Of a DNA stretch of 54,430 nt, positions 26,923 through 50,325 are shown one piece after another. Within the stretch, counting starts at the first letter, position 1; each line of letters starts with the position of its first letter. The notes under the pieces are model-generated. The model was not told the DNA's origin. It was given only the letters and a program-made list of their open reading frames with translations, and made no database searches. The position numbers and the translations under genes are program-made. This DNA is from a virus. The stretch spans positions 1 through 54,430 of IMG/VR virus record IMGVR_UViG_3300050011_000409; one strand, written 5' to 3'.

Positions 26923-27339
26923 AAAAAATGTTCTATAAAAGGATGTAACGGAAAACATCAGGCCAAGGGTTTTTGCTCTCCACACTATCACCGATGGAAA
27001 AGAACTCGAAATCCAAATCCTGATAAACCAGTCGGGGCTAGGACTGGAAAATTTAACAGTTGTTGGAGGGGTGGTGAAATTAATTTGATCAGTGGGCGCG
27101 TTCTTATTTATTCGCCCAATCACCCACATCCAAATACGGGTGGTGTTTATGTTTTTAGGTCTCGATTAGTCGTGGAAAAGCGACTTGGACGTTTTTTGCT
27201 GCCAAGTGAAATAGTTCATCATAAAAACGGAATCCGTAGCGATGATCGAGACGAAAACTTGGAATACATGACGCAATCAAGGCACGCAAAAATTCACAAC
27301 GTGAATGGCAAATTCAGCCATGAAACAATATGTTCATAA
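26920..27339 (+). CDS. HNH endonuclease
   Basis: A 139-residue protein starting at ATG 26920. The N-terminus is a zinc-knuckle (CSIKGC...GFCSPHYHRW). The C-terminal HNH-type core has LPSEIVHHKNGIRSDDRDENLEY, where the HH and N match the HNH/HNH_3 signature. It lies inside the recombination module. Its last ten bases overlap the upstream start chosen for the RecE-like nuclease, which suggests insertion between two functionally linked genes. Homing endonuclease activity is inferred from the family. Confidence 0.75.
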   Translation: MKKCSIKGCNGKHQAKGFCSPHYHRWKRTRNPNPDKPVGARTGKFNSCWRGGEINLISGRVLIYSPNHPHPNTGGVYVFRSRLVVEKRLGRFLLPSEIVHHKNGIRSDDRDENLEYMTQSRHAKIHNVNGKFSHETICS

Positions 27340-28328
27340 ATGCAAAAGTAATTGGAGCAAACCAAAAAAGAGGCGGCGCGAATCAACCTCCAAGGGGAGA
27401 TAAATCTTTTATCATGTCCCGCACGCAGCTTGTGGCTTTCGCCTTGAATCCCGCCAAGTGGATTGACGGTGGAGAAGTCGAAGAGGAGTCCAAGGCGATG
27501 AGGTTTGGTAGTGTGCTGGATTGTCTGGCGACCACGCCGGACGAACTGCTGAAAAAGTTTGCCGTGACGCCCGAACTCTATCCGGCCACGCCGAAGAAAA
27601 AAGGCGACGAACCGGAAATGAAAAAGTGGCATTCATCTACATATTGCGACAAATGGAAGGCGGACAAAGAGGCCGAAGGATTCACCGTCGTCTCGCCAAG
27701 TCTTTTTGAGGATGCAAAAAAAGCTCATGCTGCCCTACACGCCAACAGTGCTGCTGCCGAGCTTATCGAATGCTCGGAAAAGCAGGTTTTAATCTCGGCG
27801 GATTGGAAGGACTCAAAAACTCGGCTGATGATTCCTTTCAGCGGACTGATTGATCTTGTGCCGCCACCGAATCACCCCGTCTGGGGCAAGAGCCTTGGGG
27901 ACATAAAAACTACCGCTAACGCCAACCCTGCTCTTTGGGCTAGAAAAATTGACGATTCAGGATACGACGTTCAAGGTGCGCTTTACTTTGACATCTACCG
28001 AGCTGCTCGACCAAACGAGGACAGAACTGACTTTGTGCATTTGGTGCAGGAGAGTGTTTTTCCGTTCCATGTTGTCAATCCTATTCCCGCCCTAACCTCC
28101 GAATTTTTGTCGTGGGGTCAGGAAAAGTATCAGTCAGCCTTGGCGAGATACGCTCAATGTCTGGCGACGAGCGTGTGGCCGTCCTACGCTGTTGCCGGAC
28201 TTCGATTCGGCCCGACGCAGTTAATCGGCCCGGACGAGCTTTGGAATTATCGAAAAGCCGGTGGAGTTGAAATGGCCAAGCGAATTGAATATCAACCCAA
28301 ACTTGAGTCTGAAGATGTCCCGTCTTGA
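27330..28328 (+). CDS. RecE-like PDDEXK exonuclease
   Basis: A 332-residue protein. An N-terminal MSRTQLVAFALNPAKW block is followed by EEESKAMRFGSVLDCLATTPDE, as in RecE C-terminal domain/DUF3799 nucleases (the R-x-G-S-x-x-D/H-x-L motif). The PDDEXK core is seen as LMIPFSGLIDLVPPP (acidic D) and GKSLGDIKTTANANP (D and K), then a DVQGALYF strand with Q. I give 27330 as start because the residues before MSRTQ look conserved with such proteins; ATG 27414 is the alternative. It pairs with the Sak4-like ATPase: exonuclease resects, partner loads on single strands. Confidence 0.7.
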   Translation: MFINAKVIGANQKRGGANQPPRGDKSFIMSRTQLVAFALNPAKWIDGGEVEEESKAMRFGSVLDCLATTPDELLKKFAVTPELYPATPKKKGDEPEMKKWHSSTYCDKWKADKEAEGFTVVSPSLFEDAKKAHAALHANSAAAELIECSEKQVLISADWKDSKTRLMIPFSGLIDLVPPPNHPVWGKSLGDIKTTANANPALWARKIDDSGYDVQGALYFDIYRAARPNEDRTDFVHLVQESVFPFHVVNPIPALTSEFLSWGQEKYQSALARYAQCLATSVWPSYAVAGLRFGPTQLIGPDELWNYRKAGGVEMAKRIEYQPKLESEDVPS

Positions 28329-28338
28329 AACAAATTCC

Positions 28339-28614
28339 ATGAGCACATTCAAGCGCGGGAATACTCGGCGTCGTCTTCAGCGACTTGTCGGGGCGTATCC
28401 AGAAGGAACCGCACTAATGAGAATGCGCAAAGGGAAAGAATTATTTGACTGGGCGGTGGCCGCCGCAGCCGATGACAACGAAGAAACATTGAAGGCACAT
28501 GCTGGGCGTTGGATGCCCTTTGCCGAACTCATGGCCGTCGCCTTCAATCGCCCTAACGAATCAAGCTCTGCCACGAGTGGTGGGCAGGGCGTAACCAATG
28601 CAAACAAACCGTAA
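28339..28614 (+). CDS. Small protein ending inside an attC-like site
   Basis: A 91-residue protein starting at ATG 28339 (MSTFKRGNTRRRL), with a basic N-terminus and a helical middle. It starts ten bases after the RecE-like stop. Its last ~20 residues (SSSATSGGQGVTNANKP) are encoded within the left arm and loop of the first attC-like site (28551-28677), so the end of the protein overlaps the recombination site. This is a usual property of integron cassette genes. Function unknown. Confidence 0.5.
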   Translation: MSTFKRGNTRRRLQRLVGAYPEGTALMRMRKGKELFDWAVAAAADDNEETLKAHAGRWMPFAELMAVAFNRPNESSSATSGGQGVTNANKP

Positions 28615-28677
28615 AATTAACGCGATGCCGCCAACCTCAAGGGACACCACTCGTTGTGCAGCAGCGCGTTGTTAGGC
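28551..28677 (+). repeat. attC-like recombination site 1
   Basis: The right boundary is GCGCGTTGTTAGGC, with GTTAGGC at 28671-28677 matching the attC right core GTTRRRY. The left boundary CCCTAAC (28551-28557) resembles RYYYAAC with the first base off. Between them CGAGTGGTG (28574-28582) pairs perfectly with CACCACTCG (28645-28653), and flanking bases pair imperfectly (GCTCTGCCA with TTGTGCAGCAGC). About 127 bases in all, within the attC size range. Weaker than site 2. Confidence 0.55.
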
Positions 28678-28681
28678 GTGT

Positions 28682-28906
28682 ATGAACGAACAAACCGAAG
28701 CCCGACTGCATGAAATAATGAGCATCGCCAGAAAGCTGTCATGGCTCTACAAAAATCCAACTGGCTACCCAATGATGCAGGGCAGCGAAGTGGAAAAATG
28801 TATCCTGATGGCACTGGATGACCGCGAACTCGAACGCTTCCGAGAGGCGGTGAAGGATGCTGATGTCATCACCATCAACCGCAACATAAACCCTCAACAC
28901 GCCTAA
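28682..28906 (+). CDS. Cassette gene between two attC-like sites
   Basis: A 74-residue protein of unknown function (MNEQTEARLHEIMSIARKLS ... VITINRNINPQHA), helical and charged. It begins five bases after the right core of attC-like site 1. Its TAA stop (28904-28906) lies inside the GCCTAAC core of site 2. A single small ORF filling the space between two attC sites is exactly the structure of an integron gene cassette. The start is the ATG at 28682; no strong ribosome-binding site is seen. Confidence 0.65.
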   Translation: MNEQTEARLHEIMSIARKLSWLYKNPTGYPMMQGSEVEKCILMALDDRELERFREAVKDADVITINRNINPQHA

Positions 28907-28990
28907 CGCCACAAGCTGAGGCACAGCGGACTAGGCGCGTGGATTGCAATGACGGCGCTAACCGCTGTTGCCTCCAGCGCGTTGTTAAAC
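28901..28990 (+). repeat. attC-like recombination site 2 with extrahelical bases
   Basis: The left core GCCTAAC (28901-28907) fits RYYYAAC and the right core GTTAAAC (28984-28990) fits GTTRRRY. The inner arms are GCTGAGGCACAGCGG (28915-28929) and CCGCTGTTGCCTCCAGC (28962-28978). They pair along their whole length except for two unpaired bases (T and C) on the right arm. Such extrahelical bases set strand choice in attC recombination by integron integrases. Total 90 bases. GTTAGGC of site 1 pairs with GCCTAAC of site 2, as expected of the two ends of one cassette. Confidence 0.75.
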
Positions 28991-29001
28991 GGCCCAAAAA
29001 C

Positions 29002-29217
29002 GTGACGGCCAACGCACAGAAAACATGCTGCAACTGGCTGGCTTTCTGCCTGACGCTAGGATGGAAGAAAGATTCACTGGATGCGCTCGAACAAATGTGG
29101 TGGGACTACCATGACCGAACCGGAAAACTCGTCAGGCCGCACGCCGCTGATGAGCCGCGTGGCGCGCGTGAAAGTCACGCGGGCGCAAGCACGATTTCAG
29201 GTGGTGGCATTTTATGA
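29002..29217 (+). CDS. Small Cys/Trp protein after attC-like site
   Basis: A 71-residue protein from a GTG start at 29002, twelve bases after the attC-like right core. The block CCNWLAFCLTLGWKKDSLDA followed by LEQMWWDYHDRTGKL is a recognisable pattern in small phage proteins. It may be a second cassette gene or the original downstream gene. Its 3' end overlaps the end of the convergent ATP-grasp gene by 43 bases. An upstream ATG at 28939 would lie inside the attC site and is less likely. Confidence 0.5.
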   Translation: MTANAQKTCCNWLAFCLTLGWKKDSLDALEQMWWDYHDRTGKLVRPHAADEPRGARESHAGASTISGGGIL

Positions 29218-30476
29218 TCAGTGAACTTGATGCCAGCTTCTTCCTCCGTTTCGATATTCCTTAAAATATCGGCCAGAGATTCAACGCAGGCGTCCGCGCC
29301 GTCCGGCAACAGGTCGGCGAGCCTGTTCATTTCCTCCGCGACTTCGGTTGGAGTGTCGCCCACAGCCAGCAGCCAGCCGATTTCCTCAATGGACGGCCCG
29401 TCCGCTGGAAACCAAATCTTTCCGTCGAGTTCACAGCAGTCACAAACCTTCAGCCAAGGCTTGAGTTCATCCGGGAGAACGATGGAAGCCCAGGAATCTG
29501 ACTCGCCCTTTATCTTGACCATGCACTCGGCGGAAAACTTGAAGCCGTAATCAGTGTCGACCAGTTCGCCATCCGCGCCGTGCCATAGTATTTCCGGCAC
29601 GTTCGCGGCGGCTAAGAAGGAGGCGGTGGACGGCATACCGCCGCGCGCTGTGGCGTCAATGAAGTAGGCTTCGGCTCCGGTGACGCGGACTTCCATTGAC
29701 CACTGGCAACTATATTCACTTTCGGCGAGAAACGGCGAGAACGCATCCATGATATGGGTAAGTTCATCGGGCATTTCCCGTTTGAGTGTGACGGCGGAGA
29801 AATAGGCTTCATCTTTTTGTTCAATTCCGTGGAGCATAGTGGCTGGCCACTGGCCATGCACGCAAAATGTGTCCGCGCCGATTTCGAGTTTGGTGTCAAT
29901 CTTGTCGAAAACGAGGAATGGGACGTGTTCTTTCAAGCCGCCAAGCTTCACTGCCCAGAGGTCGAGATTTTCTGCGTCCTCGCGCCAACTGCGCCAGTGT
30001 TTGGTTTCCAAGCTTCCTCTCCAAAATGAAACCTTGATGAATTGATCCTTTTTGTCTTTGAGATAATCGGCCAAAGCCGAAAGACCGACAAGGCTACGAT
30101 GGGGTGCGATTGCCAGACCAAGCTCGCCGAGTTTTTGGAAAAAGAATTCTCGGTTGGTTTCCAGTCTCATGCCGGCCCCGGCCCCCCAGACGCGGCAGCC
30201 TTGGGCGCGCAAATCAGCTTGCAGGCCTTGGTGGTAAATGTCCGGGAAAACCCATAGGTCAATTTTGTTTTTTATAGCCCACGGGTCATTACAGCGAATG
30301 ATGTCATCGAAACCCGCGCCTATGATGCCTTCGTTCAGTGTCGGAAACGCCTTTTCAAAAGGCGTGTGGTAATAGACCTTTCCGAATCCACCGGGTTCGG
30401 CTAGTCGCCGGGCCAGCGGGAGAAAAAATCCGTGGTCAAAAACCAAGACCGTGCGGTTTGAAAAATCCTCGCTCAC
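29175..30476 (-). CDS. ATP-grasp-like ligase
   Basis: A 433-residue protein starting with GTG at 30474-30476, overlapped by the SET gene stop (GTGA). The N-terminal domain (TVLVFDHGFFLPLARRLAE) is a Rossmann-like strand-loop-helix. The middle has an ATP-grasp layout resembling phosphoribosylamine-glycine ligase-type proteins: FIKVSFWRGSLETKHW (nucleotide-binding Lys strand), WSMEVRVTGAEAYFIDATARGG (metal-binding acidic end with D and R). These enzymes join a carboxylate to an amine using ATP; the substrate is unknown. Similar proteins occur in other phages downstream of portal genes. It is the last gene of the portal operon. Confidence 0.6.
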   Translation of the reverse strand: MSEDFSNRTVLVFDHGFFLPLARRLAEPGGFGKVYYHTPFEKAFPTLNEGIIGAGFDDIIRCNDPWAIKNKIDLWVFPDIYHQGLQADLRAQGCRVWGAGAGMRLETNREFFFQKLGELGLAIAPHRSLVGLSALADYLKDKKDQFIKVSFWRGSLETKHWRSWREDAENLDLWAVKLGGLKEHVPFLVFDKIDTKLEIGADTFCVHGQWPATMLHGIEQKDEAYFSAVTLKREMPDELTHIMDAFSPFLAESEYSCQWSMEVRVTGAEAYFIDATARGGMPSTASFLAAANVPEILWHGADGELVDTDYGFKFSAECMVKIKGESDSWASIVLPDELKPWLKVCDCCELDGKIWFPADGPSIEEIGWLLAVGDTPTEVAEEMNRLADLLPDGADACVESLADILRNIETEEEAGIKFTDHKMPPPEIVLAPA

Positions 30477-30886
30477 AAATTCAATTCGCCATAGGTGCCA
30501 TAATTGACGGTGAGTTCTTCGCCTTCGGCAATCTCCCGTAGCGTGAAGAAGTCTCCATCCCGTTCTTCCATATTAGGAGTCTTGCTGTGGTTCAAAAACC
30601 ATGCCACCCCACACGAGTTGAGACTGTGATTCGGGATGTCAAAAACGCCGTCATTTTCGGGGCACAAATCTACCACCAATTGCATGATGGATTTGGGAAG
30701 TTGGGCGGATTCAATAGCGGCTCTGGTGCAAGTTTCAAACACGCACGGCCTGTCCTCTTGCATCGGATTGATGCCCTTGGGGATTGGCCGGACGGCGATG
30801 ACGCCTACGCCTTGGATTTTGCTCGCGCCGATGCGGCAGAACACTTTTGTTTTGAGGTCGTTTATGAATTCAGTTGCGGTGATCAT
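30473..30886 (-). CDS. SET-domain protein (putative lysine methyltransferase)
   Basis: A 137-residue, SET-only protein. The signatures are GVGVIAVRPIPKGI near residues 26-39, FLNHSKTPNM at 98-106 (NHS motif) and GEELTVNYG at 122-130 (ELxxNYG-type end). These are the S-adenosylmethionine-binding and catalytic-Tyr motifs of SET lysine methyltransferases. It is co-transcribed with the portal gene and overlaps the ATP-grasp start (GTGA), so the two enzymes are translationally coupled. The target could be a virion or a host protein; no zinc post-SET domain is present. Confidence 0.75.
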   Translation of the reverse strand: MITATEFINDLKTKVFCRIGASKIQGVGVIAVRPIPKGINPMQEDRPCVFETCTRAAIESAQLPKSIMQLVVDLCPENDGVFDIPNHSLNSCGVAWFLNHSKTPNMEERDGDFFTLREIAEGEELTVNYGTYGELNL

Positions 30887-31094: not shown

Positions 31095-31321
31095 GGAAGG
31101 ACGTGTTTTTTAATTCTTGGCTGGCGGCGTTTGATCACTTCAACCTGAACTTGCCGGACCGTTTCCGACACCGGCTCGGTCTTACGCAAGACGGGCGGGT
31201 GTTTGGCGAGCGCGTCTTTTTCGATTTCGTCCCAAAACGGCGAAACCATCGTCCGGCGGAGATGGGAGTCAATCGCGGCGCGCGTGTTCCGTTCGTCAAT
31301 TTCCTTTGGATTCAGTTCCAT
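31091..31321 (-). CDS. Small charged protein after portal gene
   Basis: A 76-residue highly charged protein (MELNPKEIDERNTRAAIDSH ... VIKRRQPRIKKHVLP) with a basic C-terminus. It overlaps the portal gene by 26 bases at its start and the next gene by four at its stop, so all are one operon. Function unknown; a portal-associated or DNA-end protein is possible. Confidence 0.55.
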   Translation of the reverse strand: MELNPKEIDERNTRAAIDSHLRRTMVSPFWDEIEKDALAKHPPVLRKTEPVSETVRQVQVEVIKRRQPRIKKHVLP

Positions 31322-33677
31322 GGTCGAAAAAGTCTTTCATCCGGTTGTGGGCGAGTTCCTGCAAATGCTCCTGGTCTTTTTGACGGGACTCCTGCTCAAA
31401 TGTAATCTGACGCTGTGCTGTTCTTTGAGCATGGGACTCTCTGGCATTATCAGCTTTCAGTTTGGCCATCATCATGGTGCTTTGCAGTTTGGCCGCAGCC
31501 TCTGGGTCCATTCCGCCGTTTCCCTTCTGCTGTTTCTTCATGGCCTCTTGTGCGCGCTGGGCGAAGCCCTTGACAGCGTTCATCAACTGAGCGAGCGCGT
31601 CCGTGTAGTGTTTGGCCTTTTCCTTTACCGTATCATCGGGCGGAACCCCTTTGACGTGCATCGGCTTTTCGTCTTCGGAAAATAGTTTGATGTGGCTGGC
31701 GATGCCATTGCCCGGGACTGGCTGGCCCTGGATCGTCTCGCCGGCGAGGTTTTGGAGGCCGTTGATTTCGTCCGGGGTGCCCACGCCGCCCCGCTGGGTG
31801 ATTTGCTGGACCTTGGCGGCCATAGTTGCCAGCAGCGCCTCGATATATTCGGAATGATTTACGCCTTCCTTCAGGGCGACCGGCAAGCCTTGCAGCATGA
31901 CGCCGGCGGCCAGTTGCGCGTCGTGGATTGAGTCGCTGATCACCGGCTGGTCGGGCACGGCCTGCCGCGCGAGTTCGTAATCGTCGGTGAGTGAGGCGAG
32001 GCCCAGGCGCATGAAATTGCGCTGCGCGGTCGGGTCGAGCTTGTTGTAATACAGCAGCATGATTTTGTCGAAGATGGCATTTTGCAGCATCTTGTTGCCG
32101 CCGCCCATGACCCGCACCGGCTGCACATTCCAGCGTTCGATTTCCAGCATTTCCTCCGGGACACCCGATTTGAGGACCGCCAGACGGAACTGGCGCACGT
32201 CGGCATCGCGGCTGTTCTGGATGCAAAAGCGACGGCAGATTTCGTCATACTGGAATTTCTGATAATTGTAAGCCTGGTTGAGCAGGCCACTGACCAGCGC
32301 GGCGCTGGTGTTGACCTTGGCCATGGTGCGCGTGGCGGTTTCATTCTCGCCGGCCTCCTGGTCGAAGTCCTGGGTGAATGAGGCGGAATTGTCGGACATG
32401 ATCTGTCGGTTTTTTGCCAACGCCATTTTGATAAGTTCGCCGTCCACTTCCCAACGCTCATCCCGTTTTACAAATTGCAGACCGTCCGGCAGTGCCTTTT
32501 TGTCCGTGAGATCCACTTTCCACGCGCGCTCGGAGTCAACGGAATTTGTGACACGAAAATACTGCATCAACTGCTCGAACGTGCTTTCGTCGAACTTGCA
32601 GTTGAGGCGGTTTTGGACGTGACAGATCGAGTAGAGTAGGAAGCCGAGCGAGCGGACGGTGTGATAGCGGAACGGCGCCACGCAGGAACAATCCGCAAAC
32701 TGGAAATGGACTGTCTCGCTCAACTTGTCGCAAAATACGGGGTTGCGGCGTTCTTCGGAATCGTAGAGGAAATCGCTTTTGTCGAAATTCCATTGGCCGT
32801 ATTTGCCAGATTGTTTGCTGGGTTTTACGTTCAATGACATACCGCCCGCGCCGCCGATCCCAGGCTCGCCCCAAGCATCGAGGATGATCTTTTTTCGCCA
32901 GCCGGACCTCTTGCCGTCATCGTTCCAATAGATAAACTCGAAACAGTCTATGGTTGGGACACAATCAGAGGCGTAGTAGCCGCCGTCCTGTTTGATACGT
33001 TCCTCCATTTTTTCTGGCGACCAGACTGGAAGGTAAGCCGCCGAAGACAGGGCATGTGTTTGGTCGTTGACCCACTTTACGCACTTTTCAGCCTTTTCAA
33101 TGTTCCAGCCGGGATCAACTTGGGGCTTGTGTGTATTCTCCCAAAGTTCTCGGGCGCTGTATTGGCGGTAACGGGCGAGGAACGGGAGGTTGCTCAGCGA
33201 GAGCAGCGTGTTGGATGGGACCAAAATATCCTCGATGCCATCGGATTCCGGGCACCACGCATGCGCGTCCGGCCAGCTTGACGGCCCGATGCCGTGCATG
33301 ACCAACTGCGCAAAGATACTGCGGCGAGTTTCGAGATAGCGCAGCGAGCCTTTGATCTTTTTGTTCACCTTGTCTTGGAGGCTGGCGGCCCAGTCGCGGC
33401 GCTTCCAGACGGGACCGGAATCGAGTTCGACGGTGAACAACGGATCAGGCGCGAGAAACGCATTCGACAATTGACGGCGCGCGTTGTGCGCGATGTTGGA
33501 CATGGACAGGTCGTTGTAATTGACGGCGATCTGGCCGGCCGCAACTTCATCCTCGCTGTAAGGAGGCCAGCCGTTTGCCAATTCGTTGATCCGTGTCCGG
33601 TTTTTTGCGCGCGGCCAATCCGCCAAACGGAGTTCTGAAACAATCTCTTCTACTAGTTGTGGGTTTGAAAAATTCAT
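31296..33677 (-). CDS. Portal protein
   Basis: A 793-residue protein with the length and composition of a podovirus portal. The N-terminus (VEEIVSELRLADWPRAKNRTR) is helical. It is followed by YNDLSMSNIAHNARRQLSNAFL, by Trp-rich blocks typical of the clip/stem region, and by a long charged, Gln-rich helical C-terminus (KADNARESHAQRTAQRQI) as in portal barrels. Portals form the dodecameric DNA-entry ring of the head vertex. The start is the ATG at 33675-33677, three bases from a perfect palindrome. The assignment rests on size, layout and context. Confidence 0.7.
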   Translation of the reverse strand: MNFSNPQLVEEIVSELRLADWPRAKNRTRINELANGWPPYSEDEVAAGQIAVNYNDLSMSNIAHNARRQLSNAFLAPDPLFTVELDSGPVWKRRDWAASLQDKVNKKIKGSLRYLETRRSIFAQLVMHGIGPSSWPDAHAWCPESDGIEDILVPSNTLLSLSNLPFLARYRQYSARELWENTHKPQVDPGWNIEKAEKCVKWVNDQTHALSSAAYLPVWSPEKMEERIKQDGGYYASDCVPTIDCFEFIYWNDDGKRSGWRKKIILDAWGEPGIGGAGGMSLNVKPSKQSGKYGQWNFDKSDFLYDSEERRNPVFCDKLSETVHFQFADCSCVAPFRYHTVRSLGFLLYSICHVQNRLNCKFDESTFEQLMQYFRVTNSVDSERAWKVDLTDKKALPDGLQFVKRDERWEVDGELIKMALAKNRQIMSDNSASFTQDFDQEAGENETATRTMAKVNTSAALVSGLLNQAYNYQKFQYDEICRRFCIQNSRDADVRQFRLAVLKSGVPEEMLEIERWNVQPVRVMGGGNKMLQNAIFDKIMLLYYNKLDPTAQRNFMRLGLASLTDDYELARQAVPDQPVISDSIHDAQLAAGVMLQGLPVALKEGVNHSEYIEALLATMAAKVQQITQRGGVGTPDEINGLQNLAGETIQGQPVPGNGIASHIKLFSEDEKPMHVKGVPPDDTVKEKAKHYTDALAQLMNAVKGFAQRAQEAMKKQQKGNGGMDPEAAAKLQSTMMMAKLKADNARESHAQRTAQRQITFEQESRQKDQEHLQELAHNRMKDFFDHGTESKGN

Positions 33678-45807: not shown

Positions 45808-46226
45808 TTTATTTGATCCAGGAATTCTTCAAAACTGAACACAACGAAATGTTTGTGGCCAAGTGCGAGCAGGACATGCTTGGTAACGGTCTGTTCTTTG
45901 TTCAGTTTTTCCCCCTCGCGCTTGCACTCCACCCAGAACGTGCGTGGTTGACCTACGTTCCCAGTCGGTGGCGCGGCGATGATAAAGTCCGTTACGCCAA
46001 GCTGTGTTGTGGTTGCCCTGTCCATTCGGCTGTGGACATAATACCATCGGCGCCGTTTCAGTTCGGCCTCAATTTGGTCGTGCAAATCGCTCTCGCGCTC
46101 AACCGGCTCGCCGGCGGACTGGTTGGGTGAGGCTTGAAATGGATTCCTGTCCCAAACGCCGGGACTGGTTTCGACGTAGCCCTTCGCCCGCATTTCCATA
46201 TCGAATGATTGTGGCGACTGGCTCAT
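45804..46226 (-). CDS. VRR-NUC-type nuclease
   Basis: A 140-residue protein. The catalytic series of PDDEXK/VRR-NUC nucleases is visible: SDLHDQIEAELKRRRWYYVH (Glu helix), QLGVTDFIIAAPP (Asp 80 in GVTDF), RTFWVECKREGEKLNKEQ (E100-x-K102), and VLLALGHKHFVVFS at the end. Such nucleases process branched DNA or act as restriction-like cutters. The start overlaps the HerA-like ATPase stop and the stop overlaps the next start (ATGA each), so these three genes are coupled. A role in DNA-end processing with the ATPase is inferred. Confidence 0.75.
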   Translation of the reverse strand: MSQSPQSFDMEMRAKGYVETSPGVWDRNPFQASPNQSAGEPVERESDLHDQIEAELKRRRWYYVHSRMDRATTTQLGVTDFIIAAPPTGNVGQPRTFWVECKREGEKLNKEQTVTKHVLLALGHKHFVVFSFEEFLDQIK

Positions 46227-47998
46227 GTGAAAAATTCATCCGCCGCTCGCAGCGTCTCATTGTTTCGACCCACAATAACGCCGGCCGTTCGCAACGCTCC
46301 CAGGGCATTCTGTGTGCTGCCCGACCATTCGTATCCTGAAGTTTGTAAAAGTTCGTCGCGCGCCAGGCCGTTTGGGTTGTCAATCAAGCAGCGCAGCAAT
46401 GACCGCTCGCATTTCCCAAAGTGCGGGAAGGTAAGCCAGTAATTTCTGAATCCGTCGCCTTCAGGTAGTGGCTGGAAACTCCCGGAAGCCATTCCCGCTT
46501 CGGTGATTCTGATGAGACTGTTGTTTGCGCCTTCGACAAGTCCGAGCGACCGCAATTTTCCGAGCGCGTTTTGTGTGCTGCCGCTCCACGCATAGCCGGC
46601 GAGCAGAATCAATTTGCCGCGCGTGCAGCCTTCTGGATATTTGGCGACCACAGACAAAAGTGAACGCTCGCACTTGCCAAGTGGCGGATCAATGACTGGA
46701 AACTCGCCTCGATAGTCAGTGAATCCGTCGTCGCGTTTAAGTGGCAGGACTGGCCGGGGCGCGGCCGGCGCGATGAGTTTCGCCAGGCGTGTTTGCCCCG
46801 CTTCCTTTTGTGGCAACACCAAAAGTTTTCCGGCCAGCAGGTTCTTAAAAAAAACAAGCTCATCCCGCATTCCGTCCTTCGCAACAGAAAATAAATCCAT
46901 CAGGCTTCTGGCGGAATTGAATGTGGCGATAAATGTTTCGTGGGTGTCAATCAACTTCGTTAACCGCTTACGCTCGGCATCGGTCAACGCGGGAATGGTT
47001 TTTATTTCAACCGCTTGTGCAACTGGTTTTGAAATTTGCGGTTGTGCTTTAAGTTGAGTCTTCAGTGACCGTATCTCTTTCTTTAGCTCTAGGGGGTCGT
47101 TCTCCTTCGCTCTAGCTACTGTTGATTTTATCTGCTCGCCGAGTTTTTCCAAATCCACCAGAGCAACCTCTTTGGGTATCACAACCTGCTTGCCAACTTC
47201 AGGAGTAGAAGATGAATCAAATGTCCGGCGTTTTCGGATTTCAACTCGTTTGAAAATATCAAGCCATCCGGGAGACCAAAACCACGCTGTCCCGATTGGT
47301 AGTGATGCAAGGCTGTCGAAAAACTGTTCCTGCTTTGACTCTGAACCATGAACCTCAATCCACGCTTGCAACGCATCCCTGTCTTGTGGGGAGATGGTTC
47401 TCAATGCCACCAAGACCTCGATTTGTGTGAGCACATTCTTGTTGATGACCGCTGCCCGTTGGGTGATAAGCGTTACCCCCAGCCCGCGCGCTCGACCTCT
47501 GCGAACGATGTCCTCGAAGGCTCCGAGTAATCTTTCCTCACCCTTCATTGGTCGTTGTGGGGCAAATGCGTCAGCCTCGTCCACGAACAGGTGTAGCGGC
47601 TTTCGGTTAAGCCGATACAGTGTCTCCGCGAACGCTGTCATAAAACGAACCTGTGAGTTCTTCCGCAGTAGCGAGATGTCAAGGATGGCCGAGAATCCGT
47701 TTTCGACAACAGCACCGGCAATTATCTCGCCGGAATTTTCCTCAAGTGGAACATCTGCGCGTTCGCCACCAAACACAACAATGGGATAACCCGCACTCTT
47801 TCCATCAGCCGATGAGCGCAATCCCCACCAAACCCCAATTGGATCAGCTACAACGATCTGCTGTGATGCCTCCAGCATTTCCTCGGCCATCACTGCCCCA
47901 GTATAAGTTTTGCCAACCCCACGCTTGGCGAGAATAGCAAAGGTTTGAGTTACTGCCTCAAGTGGCAGGGAAAGAGAATGTGATATTTTTAATTGCAT
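46223..47998 (-). CDS. HerA-like DNA-translocating ATPase with two winged-helix domains
   Basis: A 591-residue FtsK/HerA-type ATPase. Walker A is LAKRGVGKTYT (residues 23-33), Walker B LHLFVDEADAF (135-145), and the sensor and arginine-finger segments are RARGLGVTLITQRAAVINK and LVALRTISPQDRDAL. The C-terminal region (~440-590) is a duplicated winged-helix unit: GKCERSLLSVVAKYPEG ... GYAWSGSTQNALGKLR and then GKCERSLLRCLIDNPNG ... GYEWSGSTQNALGALR. Such ATPases pump or unwind DNA in end resection, conjugation or defence. The nuclease gene follows directly. Target is unknown. Confidence 0.75.
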   Translation of the reverse strand: MQLKISHSLSLPLEAVTQTFAILAKRGVGKTYTGAVMAEEMLEASQQIVVADPIGVWWGLRSSADGKSAGYPIVVFGGERADVPLEENSGEIIAGAVVENGFSAILDISLLRKNSQVRFMTAFAETLYRLNRKPLHLFVDEADAFAPQRPMKGEERLLGAFEDIVRRGRARGLGVTLITQRAAVINKNVLTQIEVLVALRTISPQDRDALQAWIEVHGSESKQEQFFDSLASLPIGTAWFWSPGWLDIFKRVEIRKRRTFDSSSTPEVGKQVVIPKEVALVDLEKLGEQIKSTVARAKENDPLELKKEIRSLKTQLKAQPQISKPVAQAVEIKTIPALTDAERKRLTKLIDTHETFIATFNSARSLMDLFSVAKDGMRDELVFFKNLLAGKLLVLPQKEAGQTRLAKLIAPAAPRPVLPLKRDDGFTDYRGEFPVIDPPLGKCERSLLSVVAKYPEGCTRGKLILLAGYAWSGSTQNALGKLRSLGLVEGANNSLIRITEAGMASGSFQPLPEGDGFRNYWLTFPHFGKCERSLLRCLIDNPNGLARDELLQTSGYEWSGSTQNALGALRTAGVIVGRNNETLRAADEFFT

Positions 47999-48616: not shown

Positions 48617-48715
48617 TTAATCGGACGCGACCACGGCGCCGATGGCCGACAACAGGCCGGTCAAGGCTAATCCCGCCGTGCAGCTTTTGAATCTATCGTC
48701 GCGCCCGAAATTCAT
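48617..48715 (-). CDS. One-TM microprotein (32 residues)
   Basis: A 32-residue protein (MNFGRDDRFKSCTAGLALTG then a hydrophobic run to VVASD). A charged N-terminus is followed by one membrane segment. Its ATG overlaps the primase-helicase stop (ATGA), so translation is likely coupled. It may be a small membrane effector; no family. Confidence 0.5.
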   Translation of the reverse strand: MNFGRDDRFKSCTAGLALTGLLSAIGAVVASD

Positions 48716-50325
48716 ACTGGTTCAGTTGTCCGCTCGGTTATTAACATTTTTGCACCATCGAAATTGCATTTGACCCGCGTTCCGCTTCCGCCCTTTGTGG
48801 ATTTCAAAACCTTCAAGTGCATCAAGGTCGAATCATCCTTGTCGCGCCATGCACCGATAAGCAGCCCGCAGGAATTCTCAATCGAACCGCTTTCCTTTGC
48901 GGAATGCAACGCGATTTCCTTCGAGTCTTCCGTCGGTCTTCGCACCTGTGATGCCGCAATAATGATTGTCCGTGTCGTCTTGGCCAGCACTTTCAAACCC
49001 TCGGCTACATCTGAAATCCGCTCGCGCCGGTTCGCCCCGTCCGCGCCGACAAGTTGGAGGTAATCAATCAGGACGAGTTTCGGCTTGCAGCCCATTTTTA
49101 ATTCGCTTCGTAGGATGTAGTTTTCAAAGTCTGCCAGTGTCAATCTTGATTGCGTGCAAATGAAAAAGTTTCTGAACTCCACTCCAAGCCCTTCCCCGAT
49201 CACTTCGCCGCGCTGGTAGGCGGATTCAACATCTCGGCAATCCAGCCTGTATTGAGCCGCCACGGAACGCTCGAATAAAAGTTCGGGTGGCAGTTCCAAC
49301 TCAAACAGGAGCGTCGGAATTGGGCGTGCGCTCTTGGCGATGGCGGAGAGAATCCCAGTCTTGCCAGCGCCGGTGTCACCAATGAAGAAAACCAGTTCGC
49401 CAGGAATCAGTGGGCGGATGTATCGTCCCAGAGTCGGCAACCATTTCCCAAGATCAAATGAGTTTTGTGCCTGGCTTTGGATGAGCCGAAGATAATTCGG
49501 CTCGATCTCGCCCATTGTGTAAATCGGCAACTTGACGCCCTTGAAGAACGGGTGGGCATTTGAAAACAGTTCCTCGATGGCGGCTTTGGATTCGTTCTCG
49601 GATTTGAAAGAGGCGATGAAATCTGAAATGTCCTTCGTGGTCTTTGGCAGCTTGACGATTCGCACGGACTTCGCTTTGCCGCACACGGATTCAAAAACAA
49701 GGTCAACATGCTTTTGTCCCGGCTCGTCGGTGTCGCCGCAGATTACCACCTCCTTATCGCAAAGCGTTTCCGTGTAGGCGTCCAGCCACTTGCCCGCGCC
49801 GCCGACGTTGCACGTTGCGACAATCCCAAGTTCCGCCAGATTGTCCGCGTCTTTCTCGCCTTCAACGATCCACACAATCGGACTTTTCAAAACTTCGGGC
49901 AGGTGATAAATAAATCGCTCAACTCCGTCCATGCTCCAAATCCAATTCCCGTCCACTTGATGCCGCTGACGGAAGGATTTCGGCTTGAGCCTCACCACTT
50001 GATAGGCTTCCTGACCCGTGTGTTTTTGGTAGGAATAAATCTTTTCGATCACCGGCTTCTCGGTTGTCGCATGTGCGTTGCTGGCCGGGACAGCGAACGG
50101 CCTGGCCGGTTCTTCTGGGAATAGGTCTTTCATTTTCAATCCCAGTGCCGCCACAACGGATTCAGTCGGACAATTCGCAAAGCATTTCAAAAGAATTTTC
50201 CCGTCGCCTGCCCTGCGAACTTGGAGCGATGGGGATGAGTCGTCGTGGGCTGGACATCTTACCAGCCATCCGACGGCGGTTTTCTGCCGCTTCTCAAACT
50301 TGGCAATGAAGTCGTCGAAAGTCAT
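48712..50325 (-). CDS. Bifunctional primase-helicase
   Basis: A 537-residue protein resembling T7 gp4 in layout. The N-terminal zinc site is CPAHDD...KCFANCP (C24, H27, C48, C52). TOPRIM motifs are WIVEGEKDADN (152-162) and VVICGDTDEPGQ (193-204). The DnaB-type helicase has Walker A FIGDTGAGKTG (314-324), Walker B KLVLIDYLQLVG (416-427), and IIIAASQVRRPTE as a later motif. It would make RNA primers and unwind the replication fork. Its start overlaps the accessory gene stop. No DNA polymerase is seen in the window, so it must work with a host polymerase or one not recognised. Confidence 0.85.
   Translation of the reverse strand: MTFDDFIAKFEKRQKTAVGWLVRCPAHDDSSPSLQVRRAGDGKILLKCFANCPTESVVAALGLKMKDLFPEEPARPFAVPASNAHATTEKPVIEKIYSYQKHTGQEAYQVVRLKPKSFRQRHQVDGNWIWSMDGVERFIYHLPEVLKSPIVWIVEGEKDADNLAELGIVATCNVGGAGKWLDAYTETLCDKEVVICGDTDEPGQKHVDLVFESVCGKAKSVRIVKLPKTTKDISDFIASFKSENESKAAIEELFSNAHPFFKGVKLPIYTMGEIEPNYLRLIQSQAQNSFDLGKWLPTLGRYIRPLIPGELVFFIGDTGAGKTGILSAIAKSARPIPTLLFELELPPELLFERSVAAQYRLDCRDVESAYQRGEVIGEGLGVEFRNFFICTQSRLTLADFENYILRSELKMGCKPKLVLIDYLQLVGADGANRRERISDVAEGLKVLAKTTRTIIIAASQVRRPTEDSKEIALHSAKESGSIENSCGLLIGAWRDKDDSTLMHLKVLKSTKGGSGTRVKCNFDGAKMLITERTTEPV

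Follow-up and report, generated by a model that had tools for sequence, protein, structure and literature searches.

The region from 28350 to 29174 is a truncated integron cassette array in the early-gene region of a phage, and it probably belongs to a family of phage integrons that carry inverted cassette genes and share the geometry of attC, attI-like site and integrase with Verrucomicrobiota. The family is large and apparently undescribed. The window, an IMG/VR virus record of 54,430 bases analyzed over its full length, contains genes for a large terminase subunit (46226-47998) and for a primase/helicase (48715-50325) and is therefore taken as a phage genome, as the original prediction had stated. 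In place of the single acquired cassette of that prediction, we find an array fragment composed of half an attC site with its core at 28387-28393, a first gene (gene1), a complete site (attC1), a second gene (gene2), a second complete site (attC2) and a truncated third gene.

Both complete sites lie on the plus strand. attC1 (28551-28677) is bounded by a left core CCCTAAC (28551-28557) and a right core GTTAGGC (28671-28677), and attC2 (28901-28990) by GCCTAAC (28901-28907) and GTTAAAC (28984-28990); the letters and positions previously given for GTTAGGC, GCCTAAC and GTTAAAC are all correct. Relative to the core consensus RYYYAAC/GTTRRRY, attC2 is exact and the left core of attC1 deviates at its first base. 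A covariance model (R2), constructed from 11 sites of other phages with the window sites left out, matched the 54-kb window at exactly two places, attC2 (28900-28990; 59.7 bits, E 9e-13) and attC1 (28550-28677; 49.8 bits, E 2.5e-10), the latter read on the plus strand as are the genes. Folding as single-stranded DNA, suggested with the original prediction, gave -22.7 kcal/mol for attC2 (28901-28990; z -2.98), which none of 200 shuffles equaled, and -23.1 kcal/mol for attC1 (28551-28677), which is moderately unusual (z -1.80). The model and the folds together support the proposed attC type of the sites. In a core-plus-stem scan, the two sites scored 27.1 and 24.2 (attC1). When the surrounding 2.5 kb was dinucleotide-shuffled 300 times, both sites stayed above the top score of 23.3, but shuffling all 54 kb gave scores of up to 23.5, so that attC1 is marginal by fold and cores alone. 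Rfam at the gathering threshold gave no match in the window, and a pattern scan of the genome for CTCCAGCGCGTTGTTARRC identified five loci, with an R2 match at only one. The 5' arm of attC2, GCT-GAGGC-ACAGCGG, pairs with GCTGGAGGCAACAGCGG, and there are exactly two extra bases, as had been predicted, both on the 3' (L') arm. The window sites are thus imperfect single-strand palindromes with extrahelical bases, and another phage (G002) has a site that is 93.6% identical to attC2 across 94 bp.

Upstream of attC1, the right half of a further attC (site 0; 28352-28393, plus strand) ends in CTTCAGCGACTTGTCGGGG with the core GTCGGGG (28387-28393), and its left half is missing. The 91-aa gene1 (28339-28614, plus strand) stops within attC1 and reads through this half site, which suggests that ATG 28417 was its original start; it matched nothing in Pfam or PHROG. 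The space between the two complete sites is filled by the 74-aa gene2 (28682-28906, plus strand), whose TAA stop (28904-28906) falls within the left core of attC2, just as described for the 74-codon reading frame in the original prediction. Gene2 gave no match in Pfam, PHROG or GenBank phages and was found elsewhere only in a near-identical contig (L003). Its flanking cores, GTTAGGC and GCCTAAC, are complementary at all four variable positions, and this exact complement agrees with the earlier identification of gene2 as a cassette. A third cassette begins at 28985 (gene D, from GTG 29002, plus strand) and is cut at 29174, where a convergent 433-aa phage gene (29175-30476, minus strand) begins and homology with related phages starts again. 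The complementary terminal core GTTTAAC is absent within 1500 bp after attC2. The array is therefore cut at both ends, on the left within site 0 and on the right within gene D at 29174. Searches of GenBank phages and IMG/VR with gene1, gene2 and gene D returned only the near-identical contig, plus a second phage (G001) for gene1.

CALINs are groups of at least two attC sites close together without a neighboring integrase, and the window presents two R2-called sites 223 bp apart and no PF00589 protein in the record. A profile search found no tyrosine recombinase of this family encoded in the window, in agreement with the earlier claim that the genome lacks an integrase. Of the parts of a complete integron (intI, attI and attC), the window lacks intI and any terminal core or attI-like site. 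With neither an attI-like site nor an integrase, the array is most likely the remnant of a phage integron, immobile or dependent in trans, and any reshuffling of it would require an integrase acting in trans; its remaining sites might still recombine.

Directly upstream of the array lies a PD-(D/E)XK exonuclease-VIII-like gene (27330-28328, plus strand; PF12684 7.7e-13, phrog_412 5.4e-42). The 433-aa gene on the other side is a conserved flank that served to find relatives, with 72-79% identity in related phages and 48-59% in distant ones. It has no Pfam or PHROG match, and the label 'ATP-grasp' for 29175-30476 was dropped for lack of family support in these databases, as was the label 'portal' for 31296-33677. 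Adjoining the 433-aa gene, a SET-domain protein (PF00856, 3e-9) is encoded at 30473-30886.

Comparison with relatives showed mosaicism around the array. A 98% relative (L003/L020) carries the identical block with a different gene on its left, the mosaic junction lying at window position 28325, and in L003 the exonuclease-VIII-like gene is replaced by other genes. At this junction (L020 position 7480), the recombination genes on the left are entirely different and the sequence is identical onward. G001, a contig with a 127-bp terminal repeat and seven sites of its own, has only 28350-28560 in common with the window (98.6%), a stretch that stops at the following site's left core; the rest of its fetched array region is unlike. 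Its gene1 homolog, 97% identical over residues 17-74, also ends at that core. Site 0 is complete in G001 (L032 7989-8098; R2 41.4 bits), where the shared segment begins with a full attC; in the window, the sequence to the left of the right half of site 0 is replaced. G008, a more distant relative in which the 433-aa gene is 79% identical, carries nine sites at the same place beside this gene and shares no cassette with the window. We sought a clean empty site in four related phages; three (L012, L016 and L018) carry other genes without an R2 site at that place, and the fourth (L005) has its own array. The comparison of relatives with and without the cassette proposed in the original prediction thus yielded different arrays or other genes and no clean empty site.

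These junctions bear on an explanation to which we assign about an even chance, namely that the block came by homologous or illegitimate recombination from the array of another phage, integron recombination having built the array elsewhere and being now idle here. Neither end of the block coincides with an intact core (28325-28350 on the left, about 29174 on the right), the whole block also occurs in L003, and the window has no integrase. However, such a transfer leaves unexplained why G008 carries another array at this place, and for the window it is compatible with membership in the inverted-gene phage family, which we continue to prefer.

This family was identified by a pattern scan of IMG/VR and by running R2 over whole records; of 23 further records, 20 proved to contain arrays. 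This site type is carried by at least 27 phage contigs in IMG/VR, most of them metagenomic, and the fetched arrays contain 164 sites, up to 16 per phage, the median site being 105 bp long and the median cassette body 254 bp. Full complementarity of the flanking cores, at all four variable positions, was seen in 110 of 132 cassettes; chance would give 12.5, and none of 5000 draws gave more than 25. Between the two cores of one and the same site it was seen in only 31 of 132. We interpret this complementarity as the trace of an integron-type crossover in the core, in which the core at the cassette start would originally have been paired with the core at the cassette end. Its use as proof of the canonical unit was rejected, since the test is symmetrical and fits both polarities. 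Near-identical attC sites also recur in different phages with different genes on both sides, as if reused apart from the genes (L033 2385-2474, window 28901-28990 and L088; also sites of G001, G008 and G024). DNA methyltransferases of the MT-A70, N6/N4 and Dam types are among the cassette products (L036 6914-8046, L030 508-1095, L032 8840-9256), often without recognizable restriction partners.

The polarity of the sites distinguishes the phage arrays from known integrons. Class 1 cassettes carry their extra bases on the L'' arm, which adjoins the 3' end of the gene (PMC3518468). Our class 1 attC control had them always on the 5' arm (L''), as did the site of phage TJE1, whereas the phage sites of the family have 364 on the 3' (L') arm versus 40 on the 5' arm. 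R2 reads the attC of blaIMP on the minus strand. The original prediction had assumed the usual polarity of gene followed by attC, which would place the extrahelical bases in L'' on the gene side of the bottom strand; this assumption failed, the extra bases of the window occupying the L' arm, opposite to what class 1 and Verrucomicrobiota attC show with respect to gene direction. R2 matched 47 of 388 Verrucomicrobiota genomes, and five of the chromosomal integrons fetched from this group have an integrase; the bacterial comparison covered Verrucomicrobiota and one class 1 integron. Genes in the phage arrays run with the R2 strand in 105 of 131 cases (105:24; 61:7 among clear cases), whereas 56 of 68 Verrucomicrobiota integron genes run against it and 12 with it (clear cases 6 with, 49 against). 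Pfam searches confirmed the called direction, since the 75 sense ORFs of the phages matched 11 families, chiefly DNA methyltransferases and PAPS-reductase-like proteins, and none of 50 antisense ORFs matched any; the 53 bacterial ORFs of opposite direction matched 21 families. On this evidence, the genes in the phage arrays are considered inverted relative to attC when compared with the bacterial integrons examined. Some phage arrays show mixed or contrary direction (3:4 in G041, 0:2 in G031). Mixed or bacterial-like direction was also noted in L100 (G041), in L091 and on the plus strand of L088.

Polarity speaks against an ordinary CALIN, in which one or two canonical bacterial cassettes would have been captured via a host integrase, as in TJE1. 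The cassette cores and gene spacing of the window fit such an origin, and there is a precedent for it (PMC9892861). The extra bases are nevertheless on the wrong arm for canonical polarity, the genes run opposite to those of Verrucomicrobiota arrays with the same site type, and gene1 is common to G001 while the following site is not; we therefore regard an ordinary CALIN as improbable. Of the integron-type acquisition originally proposed, the array of integron cassettes stands, and a single capture event from a bacterial integron explains the data less well, because the array family is widespread in phages and some members have their own integrase.

The ends of the family's arrays resemble those of complete integrons. 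In 19 of 28 phage arrays, against 2.5 expected, the last right core has its exact complement 140-1216 bp further downstream, which indicates that the last gene is also a cassette and that the array ends in a left core. This terminal left core is often followed by an AACAGT-GATTAT-like sequence. All five bacterial integrons with intI end in such a terminal core shortly before intI, followed by an AACAGT-type sequence, and from its position and likeness we infer that the stretch after the terminal core is attI-like. The left array end was rejected as attI; a complementary core was present in only 8 of 25 cases, some of them weak further sites. Integron integrase (TIGR02249; cut-off 265 bits) was detected near four viral arrays with scores of 347, 275, 272 and 260 bits, and all four genes lie 3' of their arrays and share the strand of the cassette genes. 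The start of an integron integrase is seen at the contig end of G035, and in G043 (L101) an internally deleted integron integrase, whose N- and C-terminal parts are joined in a single frame, lies just 3' of the terminal core TTCTAAC. We read this arrangement as one in which attC, attI and intI keep their usual order and the genes are the likely turned part. Besides its array, the G035 contig (L095, L126) has a large transposase-like ORF and, after it, an ATPase-like ORF, putatively Mu-like.

Misassignment of bacterial integrons as viral contigs is a concern, as IMG/VR records are predicted from metagenomes and two contigs (G044 and G038) have few phage hallmarks. We judge it very unlikely, given that the window has a terminase and a primase/helicase, that G001 has its 127-bp terminal repeat, that gene direction is unlike that of bacterial arrays and that G025, which carries an integrase, encodes a terminase, portal, tape measure and tail fibre; G025 is the only proven phage of the four integrase-bearing contigs. 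Chance palindromes or transcription terminators are a negligible explanation, the moderate attC1 fold (z -1.8) and its scan score of 24.2 against 23.5 in whole-window shuffles being outweighed by an independent covariance model (E 1e-10 to 1e-13), the 110/132 core fingerprint and the integrase genes that adjoin some arrays.

Segments shared between arrays most often run from left core to left core and thus comprise an attC and its downstream gene (G043/G037, G029/G036 and within G024). Those shared by the window and G001, by G033 and G008, and by G017 and G033 stop at a left core, beyond which the sites differ; an internal pair in G041 is a counter-example that shares a gene and its following site. 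These few shared segments, about seven in number and set against the one counter-example, favor a crossover in the left core and a unit of attC plus downstream gene. Near-identical sites with different genes on both sides are explained by neither simple unit. In the window, the exchange unit under the inverted-gene model would be attC1 plus gene2, left core to left core (28557-28906, plus strand), and under the canonical model gene2 plus attC2 (28672-28984).

In the mechanism we propose, the cassette genes would be read towards attI and the integrase. The integrase would be the phage's own in a few relatives and would otherwise be supplied in trans by the host or a co-infecting phage. It would recombine attC folded as a single strand, with the crossover presumably in the core at the 3' side of the gene, and each attC would move with its downstream gene. 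The window array runs in the direction of the phage genes upstream and would be co-transcribed with them, needing no cassette promoter.

Phage-borne cassettes as such are known, contrary to the novelty first suggested, and it is the inverted-gene arrays that are apparently new; no description of them was found in the open-licence literature, preprints excluded. CALINs were published in the virulent phages TJE1, P12002L and PH101, the cassettes of TJE1 and PH101 having the typical arrangement, and IntI1 recombined five of six tested phage CALIN sites with attI1 (Qi et al. 2023, PMC9892861). Like the window, these CALINs are phage-borne attC arrays without integrase that hold small cassettes, DNA methyltransferases among them. 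However, the TJE1 site has canonical polarity and no R2 match, and the window family differs from the phage CALINs in its inverted genes, attI-like ends, longer arrays and, in some members, integrases. Verrucomicrobiota chromosomal integrons have the same attC type, the same attC-attI-intI geometry and an AACAGT-type sequence after the terminal core, but their cassette genes are opposite in direction relative to attC.

We lean towards the view that phages keep an integron class of their own with inverted genes, and that their cassette pool is separate from the bacterial one, the two being largely isolated. If this is true, a bacterial cassette captured at a phage attI would lie antisense, and a phage cassette in a bacterial integron would be antisense to Pc. 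Phage-borne cassettes would then be no rare oddities but a phage system dedicated to the storage and exchange of small genes, many of them DNA methyltransferase and PAPS-reductase-like genes. The phage arrays also show that gene direction relative to attC is not fixed. Strand and core use, and exchange between the phage and bacterial cassette pools, provide testable predictions.

Finally, the reverse integrons of Treponema have intI at the 5' end, read towards attI, so that intI is the inverted part (PMC3607928). They resemble the phage arrays in that integrase and cassette genes share one direction of transcription; in the phage family, however, intI, where present, lies 3' of the array and of the attI-like site, and the cassette genes are inverted instead of intI. 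In the GenBank phage contig Virus Rctr41k (KX853513, L154; 4680-8813), an integron integrase annotated as xerD is followed by several attC-like sites, with one R2 match on the minus strand, and this region appears to be an unannotated Treponema-like integron. It is similar to the phage family as a phage contig with an integron integrase, an attC array and all genes co-directional, but differs in that its intI precedes the array on the 5' side and its R2-like site reads on the minus strand, a Treponema-like layout with canonical cassettes.
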